64,000 bases of DNA from Draconibacterium aestuarii (lineage in GTDB: Bacteria > Bacteroidota > Bacteroidia > Bacteroidales > Prolixibacteraceae), in contig JAPOHD010000067.1 in assembly GCA_026671195.1 (NCBI GenBank), forward strand, positions 124,001-188,000. Direction: 5' to 3'. Numbering within the stretch: the first letter of the stretch is position 1; each line of letters begins with the position of its first letter. The translations under genes were made by a program, and so were the position numbers. Below are positions 13,314-14,541 of this stretch, piece after piece. The notes under the pieces were generated by a model that worked only from the letters and a program-made list of their open reading frames with translations, was not told the origin of the DNA and ran no database searches.

Positions 13314-13403
13314 CCAATCTTTTAATCAGTATATTTATGTTATATAACTGGGGGGGTACGCCCAGCAGTCCAATAACCCGGTTACGCCAAAATTTTGAGG
13401 CTT

Positions 13404-13436
13404 ACCTTTTCCAAAGTTCGGAACTTTGGAAAAGGT
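13404..13436. repeat. 33-bp near-perfect palindrome at the head of the repeat array
   Basis: Two perfectly complementary 16-nt arms (13404-13419 and 13421-13436) flank a single central G. It would be a very stable hairpin in RNA or a cruciform in DNA. There is no T run after it, so it does not look like a terminator. It lies 38 bp before the first 42-nt array unit. Because of the symmetry, both strands can encode the same peptide (LFQSSELWKR). Confidence 0.85.
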
Positions 13437-13473
13437 TTGTAACGAAAAACCCTGAAAATCTGAATAAAACAAG

Positions 13474-13701
13474 TTTCCCAACAACAGGAAAGTCCCAACA
13501 AAGTTCCCGGCAGGTTTTCCCGGAGGTGGGAGACTCCCGGCTAATATTCAAAGACGGTTTCCCATTGTTGGGAACGTTAAAAATAAATTTACAGCAAGAT
13601 TTCCCATTGATGGGAAAGTATGCCATGAACTTTAGAGAAGGTTTCCCAATCATGGGAAAGTTAAATCCGTGACAATGGGAAAGTTTCCCAACAGAAGGAA
13701 A
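13474..13701. repeat. array of six palindromic units with exact 42-nt spacing (FPxxGK repeat)
   Basis: Units of 18 nt begin at 13474, 13516, 13558, 13600, 13642 and 13684, exactly 42 nt apart. The consensus is TTTCCCA-N4-TGGGAAA, for example TTTCCCATTGATGGGAAA at 13600. Units 3 to 5 are the most perfect, while 1, 2 and 6 have one degraded arm. An extra inverted copy, TGGGAAAGTTTCCCA, spans 13676-13690. The 24-nt spacers differ. On the + strand the frame from ATG 13337 reads FPxxGK every 14 residues and stops at 13670-13672, yet the sixth unit stays in the same frame. The - strand frame (13402-13740) also reads FPxxGK every 14 residues. A small repeat protein is possible. A DNA- or RNA-binding site array for the gene downstream is at least as likely. 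A G7 run lies at 13350-13356 near the start of the + frame. Confidence 0.85.
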
Positions 13702-13746
13702 AAAAGTACAGATAATCCATTTTTTTAACCAATAATTCAAATTATT

Positions 13747-14469
13747 ATGGAAATTAAAAGTTTATACCTGCATGCACTTCGCAACGAAGAACACTTCAAC
13801 TATCACACCGAGGTAAACGAACTGGTGTTACGTTTTACGGTTGAGGCCTTAAAAATTCAAAAGTATTACCCGGCCTTTGAGGCGGCTTTGGCCAACGAAA
13901 GCGAAGCGCTCGACGTGGTGCGCAAAAGTATGTTTACCGGTCCCATTGCCGATGCCGACCACGTGCGCGACACCACAACCCTGGGCATGGAAGACATGGT
14001 TGATGCCGCCCTGCGTCATTTCCGCCCCGAAGTGCGCGAAGCGGCCCGCCGCCTGAAGATTGTATTCGACAGTTTCGATGGACTTACCACCAAACCCTAC
14101 GACCAGCAAACTGCGGGTACTGACAAGCTGGTTGAACTGCTCGAAACCAAACATGCCGACGATGTGGCGCTGGTTGGCCTTGCCGAGTGGGTTACCGAAC
14201 TAAAAGCCAATAACCAGGCGGTAAAAAACCTGGTGGGCGAACGTTACACCGACGATTCGGGCAAAACACCCGTTAAAATGAAAACTGCCCGCAAACAGCT
14301 CGACACCGCTTACCGCGATGTTACCCGTTTGGTGGATGCACTGATTATTGTGGAAGGCCCGGAAGCTTACGAAGCATTTGTTGGCGAACTGAACGAGCGC
14401 ATCGATAAATACAACACCCGCCTCAACCAGCGCGATGGCCGTAATAAAAAGGACAACGAGGAAGAATAG
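13747..14469 (+). CDS. DUF6261-type helical protein
   Basis: A 240-residue protein with no signal peptide and no hydrophobic segments, almost wholly helical, opening with MEIKSLYLHALRNEEHFNY, a start I associate with the Bacteroidota family DUF6261. The C-terminus is strongly charged (RDGRNKKDNEEE). The charged basic/acidic helices would fit a nucleic-acid or protein-binding role, but no catalytic motif is visible. The gene differs from its neighbours in composition: I counted 58% G+C over 13861-13980, against 48% in a sampled line of the carbohydrate locus and about 30% in the capsule locus. It starts 45 nt after the last palindromic unit and is followed by its own strong terminator, so array plus gene form a self-contained module. 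Function unknown. Confidence 0.8.
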   Translation: MEIKSLYLHALRNEEHFNYHTEVNELVLRFTVEALKIQKYYPAFEAALANESEALDVVRKSMFTGPIADADHVRDTTTLGMEDMVDAALRHFRPEVREAARRLKIVFDSFDGLTTKPYDQQTAGTDKLVELLETKHADDVALVGLAEWVTELKANNQAVKNLVGERYTDDSGKTPVKMKTARKQLDTAYRDVTRLVDALIIVEGPEAYEAFVGELNERIDKYNTRLNQRDGRNKKDNEEE

Positions 14470-14496: not shown

Positions 14497-14541
14497 AACA
14501 AAGGGATCTGATCTCTTGAAAAGATCGGATCCCTTTGTTTT
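14497..14541 (+). terminator. intrinsic terminator after the DUF6261-type gene
   Basis: A long stem pairs 14497-14508 with 14528-14539 (12 bp) and continues inward through GATCT/AGATC, followed by a TTTT run. It lies 27 nt after the stop codon and is one of the strongest hairpins in the window. It is nearly symmetric and may also work on the other strand. Confidence 0.85.

Follow-up and report, generated by a model that had tools for sequence, protein, structure and literature searches.

Arrays of palindromes at a 41-42-nt step accompany DUF6261 genes, a probable family of sequence-specific DNA-binding proteins

A DUF6261 gene of Draconibacterium aestuarii is preceded by six palindromes set at equal distances, which raises the question of what this array does and whether it belongs to the gene. 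The locus lies in a stretch of 64,000 nt, which is called the window here. A preliminary description of this DNA had offered three readings of the array: a set of binding sites for the neighbouring protein, a structured RNA, or a small repeat protein.

The array itself stands as it was described. Six dyads of the type TTTCCC-N6-GGGAAA span 13474-13701, their TTTCCC starts falling at 13474, 13516, 13558, 13600, 13642 and 13684, and all five steps are exactly 42 nt. Only units 4 and 5 are exact matches to the proposed consensus TTTCCCA-N4-TGGGAAA; units 1, 2, 3 and 6 each carry at least one arm mismatch. The features of the locus are the following.

13474..13491, no strand: dyad unit 1, TTTCCCA-ACAA-CAGGAAA, imperfect
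13516..13533, no strand: dyad unit 2, TTTCCCG-GAGG-TGGGAGA, imperfect
13558..13575, no strand: dyad unit 3, TTTCCCA-TTGT-TGGGAAC, one mismatch
13600..13617, no strand: dyad unit 4, TTTCCCA-TTGA-TGGGAAA, perfect
13642..13659, no strand: dyad unit 5, TTTCCCA-ATCA-TGGGAAA, perfect
13684..13701, no strand: dyad unit 6, TTTCCCA-ACAG-AAGGAAA, imperfect
13747..14469, plus strand: DUF6261 gene, 240 aa (PF19775, E 3.3e-40)
13756..13782, plus strand: codons 4-12, immediately preceding the LRN motif and proposed as a DNA-reading arm, as suggested by co-variation in related loci, with residues 7 and 10 as the proposed reading residues
About 14498-14541, no strand: terminator-like hairpin after the DUF6261 gene, from sequence reading

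The lag of 42 nt upstream of the gene exceeds shuffles with z of 12.5 and 8.3 in two runs. The genome (6.37 Mb in 69 contigs) holds the exact TTTCCCA-N4-TGGGAAA twice, both copies inside the array and none outside it, and Rfam at gathering thresholds gave no match across the whole window. An FPxxGK-like pattern on both strands was correctly noted before, as was the TGA at 13670-13672, which ends the plus-strand ORF 13337-13672. A separate near-perfect palindrome lies at 13404-13437 around TTTTCCAAAGTTCGGAACTTTGGAAAA, with similar copies at many places in this genome and in those of the genus.

The gene starts 45 nt after the last unit and belongs to DUF6261, as had been supposed, with 138 bits against PF19775 where the Pfam cut-off is 27; the strong terminator reported behind it corresponds to the hairpin listed above. 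An AlphaFold2 monomer of the product is all-helical (pLDDT 90.3, pTM 0.57), with residues 1-7 lacking regular structure and the first long helix starting from residue 13, and a Foldseek search of this model against solved structures gave no match at E<=0.001. DUF6261 proteins are mostly acidic (median pI 5.05). In a Pfam scan the window protein showed no recognised DNA-binding domain, no ParB-type hit up to E 0.1, and neither a ribbon-helix-helix nor a transposase domain match; a CHAD match remained below threshold (E 0.027). Nothing matched in NCBIfam or PADLOC, the matches in PHROGs were weak (the best, 'sigma-K factor', at E 0.011), and the best hit of a PDB sequence search had E 0.14. Five neighbouring genes in the window were scanned with Pfam and comprise a metallophosphatase, an MFS protein, an FGE-sulfatase, a BNR protein and one without match; none is a partition ATPase or a cas gene.

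The array and the gene go together far beyond this locus. Lags of 20-119 nt in the 800 nt upstream of each gene were compared with shuffles, and a pass required z>4. In a first set, from searches of the own genome, the family and the phylum, 53 of 63 genes passed upstream, at a lag of 41 (n=27), 42 (n=18) or the doubles 81-84 (n=8) and at no other lag; downstream, three of 63 passed (lags 42, 56 and 98). In a second set, from Sunxiuqinia, Prolixibacter, Draconibacterium, Mangrovibacterium, Maribellus, Gaoshiqia and Bacteroidales MAGs, whose species partly overlap those of the first, the upstream test was passed by 27 of 33 at 41-43 or 83-85, and the downstream test by one of 33 (lag 87). For genomes of the window's genus, the figures were 24 of 30 upstream (41, 42, 84, 85) and three of 30 downstream (21, 42, 42). 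Three of the seven downstream passes (L013, L228, L236) belong to a DUF6261 subgroup of about 226 aa that has its 42-nt array downstream of the gene instead of upstream.

The same test was counted by lineage (<90% identity, at least 600 nt of upstream sequence); of the 99 loci L252-L350, those 63 were included whose N-terminus is of the LRN type. Of the 129 lineages, 13 failed and 116 passed; the passing lag was 41-43 or 81-85 in 113 and had another value (23, 33, 37) in three. The control drew on 40 tiles of the own genome (G000) and a second one (G039), with 400 ORFs that are 200 aa or longer: 15 passed at 41, 42 or 81, of which six are DUF6261 themselves by their N-terminus, leaving nine of 394. 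The earlier proposal was to be given up if arrays elsewhere were not linked to DUF6261 genes; with 113 of 129 lineages against nine of 394 control ORFs, they are linked, and the window locus exemplifies a general DUF6261-array pattern. Arm sequences differ among DUF6261 paralogues. Eight DUF6261 matches in the own genome exceed the cut-off, and the other five complete ones have palindromes upstream with arms unlike those of the window. Two of its contigs (C45 and C60, loci L006 and L007) end inside a DUF6261 gene whose final 29 residues share 86% identity with those of the window protein, which suggests that the assembly has collapsed additional copies of nearly the same sequence.

The step of these arrays bears on the coding question. 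Four or more chained units were present in 80 of 96 loci, and their 440 steps measured 40 (n=13), 41 (n=229), 42 (n=189) or 43 nt (n=9), with a mean of 41.44; only 40-43 were allowed in this count, a limit that the lag test does not have. A step of 41 is about as frequent as one of 42, and the step is kept at 41-42 while the sequences differ. Four turns of B-DNA at 10.4 bp make 41.6 bp. A small repeat protein of 14-residue units had been considered. In its favour, 42 nt is the length of 14 codons, and most of the window array can be read through in either direction without a stop. We reject the coding array, because a 41-nt step, found in 229 of 440 cases, shifts the frame at every unit; the TGA also interrupts the plus strand in the window, and the repeat protein is left with next to no probability. 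Midway from one unit to the next there is a weak second dyad (mean pairing 0.30, compared with about 0.25), from which no conclusion is drawn. At three places, 42-nt arrays stand beside unrelated genes (L125 800-1330, L135 5733, L140 7387), and where both strands are open their translations resemble 14-residue repeat proteins. Among viral_contigs, 116 stretches have the peptide pattern and none is a relative.

The dyads could act as DNA or as RNA. In arrays with clear dyads, 1404 standard pairs were counted against mispairs of the types G-T (44), A-C (47) and other (123); this lack of a G-U bias argues against an RNA stem, which should favour G-T on one strand. For 198 TTTC-anchored units, arm pairs 4, 5 and 6 are paired in 108, 97 and 96 cases. 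Shuffles across arrays gave at most 72, 68 and 75, and shuffles within arrays gave means of 108.7, 91.1 and 98.1, that is, hardly any compensation within an array. The dyad is conserved between arrays, and the units within one array drift without compensation, as expected for a dimer site. Nine orthologue pairs changed at 38 of 514 arm positions (7.4%) and 248 of 1435 spacer positions (17.3%; arm versus spacer p 1.1e-8), where arm positions had been selected because the units of a single orthologue agree there, and where the dyads of two pairs (L019/L021, L053/L063) are doubtful; the centres changed at 98 of 471, the flanks at 720 of 3618 and the coding parts at 621 of 6501. Promoter-like sequence, by uncalibrated scores that we use as support only, stands between array and gene at six loci (L010, L014, L018, L024, L031, L043), and L047, L057 and L059 have a conserved promoter-like stretch before the array instead; a role as DNA fits both layouts. 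We read the dyads as probable DNA sites for a dimer and not as RNA hairpins, because the mispairs lack a G-U bias, compensation within arrays is lacking and the arms change more slowly than the spacers. RNA hairpins find no support in the mispair types or the within-array shuffles, and the structured RNA that had been suggested is disfavoured on these grounds and by the promoter-like stretches that separate the array from the gene at several loci.

Genes related to that of the window, with 75-77% identity in DNA, have the arms TTTCCGC (L224, L230) and TTTCGGG (L218, L219) where the window has TTTCCCA, and the residues ahead of the LRN motif change along with the arm. The residues KIDLSR precede the LRN motif in L218, L219 and also L213 (67% DNA identity), and the arm is TTTCGGG in all three; L022, at 25% protein identity, has SIDLAK before the motif and again a TTTCGGG arm, in a training case whose array of three units fails the lag test (z 2.9). 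A rule was set before new loci were fetched: for arms of the form TTTC-x1x2x3, a basic residue before LRN goes with a purine at x1, and an acidic or neutral one with a pyrimidine. Among the 99 new loci L252-L350, 63 have an LRN-type N-terminus and 28 of these a TTTC chain of at least three units; 11 were dropped as at least 90% identical to training members, leaving 17 lineages. The rule was correct on the left arm in 15 of 17 (basic with purine 10/10; H, N, P, S or Y with pyrimidine 5/7; Fisher p 0.0034), at most 16 of these lineages being unseen, since L312 is the gene of L103 from an earlier sample; the misses are L298 and L341. With pairing of at least 0.55 it held for 6/6 basic and 3/4 non-basic lineages (p 0.033), and in clusters at 60% identity, training and new pooled, for 6/6 and 8/10 (p 0.007). 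L316 and L318 are 83-85% identical to training members, five of the K-type lineages are one subfamily, and the matches at L334, L322, L270 and L331 are weak, with poor dyads in the TTTC register and, in L331, a right arm that disagrees. L321 (KIDLSH) is equivocal, its four units being split evenly between C and G.

Mutual information was ranked over 237 columns, eight N-terminal ones entered twice, in 26 TTTC-type lineages, and this column ranking is the best control used because all columns share one phylogeny. Residue 10 came top for x1 (z 6.3, next 4.6) and residue 7 top for x3 (z 6.2, next 5.5); for x2, residue 7 was fourth behind E133, Y167 and P175. Asp at residue 7 goes with GG in 9/9 lineages and Arg with GC in 3/3, but for Lys (3) and Asn (4) the pair of bases varies among lineages. 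Thus, the DUF6261 N-terminus co-varies with the arm in one clade. In other clades, to which the same relation may extend, inspection showed one arm shared by L050 and L058 and another in L061 (81-82% identical), the three differing near the N-terminus and elsewhere.

Arrays also occur away from DUF6261 genes. In 862 kb of G039 and the own genome, in tiles chosen partly to include DUF6261 genes, 20 arrays were found, 13 of them at a step of 41, 42, 82 or 84; of these, seven have a DUF6261 gene beside them and six are solo. Two of the six solo arrays resemble linked ones of the same genome (S139 and L048, 73% over 237 nt; S141 and L051, 80% over 138 nt), and those of S168 and L011 are similar by eye only. 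The own genome has a solo array on contig C20 near 426.7 kb (L243) with six TTTCC-type units, two TTTCCC and four TTTCCG; between the same two neighbour genes, G343 has a DUF6261 gene with array and one further ORF. The 1.77-kb module of L051 is absent from G006 and decayed in G027. The family is patchy, found in 14 of 41 sampled family genomes and six of 296 phylum genomes, and with an LRN-clade profile in 76 of 140 family and 36 of 344 order genomes; a single genome can have up to 14 DUF6261-array pairs, and plasmid and phage protein searches returned two records each. Two genomes without a DUF6261 match gave three short lag-41 arrays in 400 kb (G011) and no arrays in 180 kb (G010); in G342, whose four DUF6261 genes lie elsewhere, 220 kb contained two arrays with lags of 42 and 84. 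The 41-nt spacing is therefore not exclusive to the DUF6261 family. At L187 11803, in a genome without a DUF6261 match, a HipB-like gene follows TATACC-type dyads 41 nt apart.

We propose that DUF6261 is probably a family of sequence-specific DNA-binding proteins and that the adjacent array would be the protein's own set of sites, its dyads being read by an N-terminal arm. The general linkage, the 41-42-nt step and the co-variation of N-terminus and arm in one clade point to the binding-site array first suggested for the neighbouring protein. In a DUF6261 dimer, the short stretch of about residues 4-12 that precedes the conserved (L/M/F)(R/Q)N motif would serve as the N-terminal arm and read both arms of each dyad. 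Because 41-42 bp from one site to the next make four turns of B-DNA, bound dimers would lie on one face of the helix and may assemble into an ordered complex of many dimers. What such binding would lead to is a guess; the likeliest candidates are regulation of the own gene, clustering or bridging of the DNA at these places, or both. To judge from the predicted model, an N-terminal reading arm is compatible with an all-helical, mostly acidic protein, and a ribbon-helix-helix-like dimer is possible. Regulators of that type pair their N-terminal strands in the dimer, and two helices come after each strand.

Counting against direct binding are the acidic protein, its lack of a recognised DNA-binding domain and of a structure match at E<=0.001, the 13 of 129 lineages without an array, the six of 13 arrays without a DUF6261 neighbour, and the arrays in G011. 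Several of these would suit an operator array for another regulator, DUF6261 being merely a regulated neighbour: the protein is acidic and without a known DNA-binding domain, arrays without a DUF6261 neighbour exist, and short arrays of dyads at 41 nt, one of them preceding a HipB-like gene, occur in a genome in which no DUF6261 was detected. However, each paralogue has its own arm, which would call for an equal number of unknown regulators, and a mere neighbour would not explain why the DUF6261 N-terminus co-varies with the arm; we consider this alternative unlikely.

A unit like type III toxin-antitoxin systems, in which RNA repeats from the array bind or inhibit the DUF6261 protein, draws on a layout shared with ToxIN, in which tandem repeats stand immediately before a single gene (PMC8860590), and on the conserved promoter-like stretch that precedes the array at three loci. 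We find it quite improbable, since the dyads show neither G-U bias nor within-array compensation, promoter-like sequence lies between array and gene at several loci, and the all-helical model has no match at E<=0.001. Functionless satellite-like repeats, kept in step by unequal crossing-over and lying by DUF6261 genes by chance, would account for units that are alike within an array, for arrays replaced between relatives and for arrays without DUF6261. They would leave unexplained the constant 41-42-nt step across unrelated sequences, the slower change of the arms, the strength of the linkage and the co-variation with the protein, and we give them very little chance.

If DUF6261 proteins do bind their adjacent arrays, an uncharacterised family gains a function, and dozens of natural protein-array pairs offer a readable protein-DNA code for testing. 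The pairs would also be a natural experiment on four-turn site spacing and on the joint change of specificity in a binding protein and its sites. A broader picture is tentative, and we offer it as a possibility: Bacteroidales chromosomes might carry up to 14 private pairs as small centromere-like addresses, in which a few N-terminal residues set a fast-changing specificity while the four-turn step stays fixed, arrays of the same motif elsewhere act as additional sites in trans, and the family marks and organises loci.

Several known systems invite comparison. REP sequences and RAYT genes are a case of a gene with its own palindrome type; in contrast, the window's exact palindrome occurs twice in the genome, both times in the array, and the protein has no transposase domain match; a REP/RAYT-like dispersed palindrome was not found for this motif in the own genome. 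A CRISPR array would have near-identical repeats, unique spacers and cas genes; the array is not of this kind, as its units drift and no cas gene was found among the Pfam-scanned neighbours. The 'orphan CRISPR' of B. fragilis, which stands before hipB, was rejected as the same element, having 24-nt repeats and 39-nt spacers (PMC5704556). ToxIN repeats act as RNA pseudoknots, whereas the DUF6261 dyads behave like DNA sites: besides the missing G-U bias and compensation, Rfam holds no match for the array as a structured RNA. In pSM19035, omega2 is a small dimer bound to arrays whose short repeats overlap promoters, among them its own (PMC4498918); omega2-parS is a ribbon-helix-helix system with contiguous heptad sites, and DUF6261 has no Pfam match of that type. 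A literature search whose scope left outside most subscription journals and all bioRxiv preprints returned, among the papers listed, no account of DUF6261 arrays and one passing mention of DUF6261; the name appears in a variant table in PMC10376253.

The closest layout is that of the F-plasmid centromere, where a ParB dimer binds the 16-bp inverted repeat contained in each of twelve 43-bp repeats (PMC9178275). Like sopC (parS_F) with SopB (ParB_F), a tandem array of 43-bp units with its protein encoded adjacent (same source), the DUF6261 arrays have units of 41-42 bp with a dyad. They differ in that the array usually lies upstream of the gene, several paralogous pairs occur per chromosome, and DUF6261 has no ParB-like domain match. 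As to what would make a partition system, the array is present and linked and binding is suggested by co-variation only, while Pfam found no NTPase among the five window neighbours and no ParB-type helix-turn-helix. We withhold that label because there is no ATPase among the five neighbours, no ParB hit, and up to 14 pairs per genome. Our best reading of the layout, by analogy, is one like the F-plasmid centromere on a chromosome, and we would thus say that the DUF6261 protein and its array may work like a multi-site centromere or operator array.
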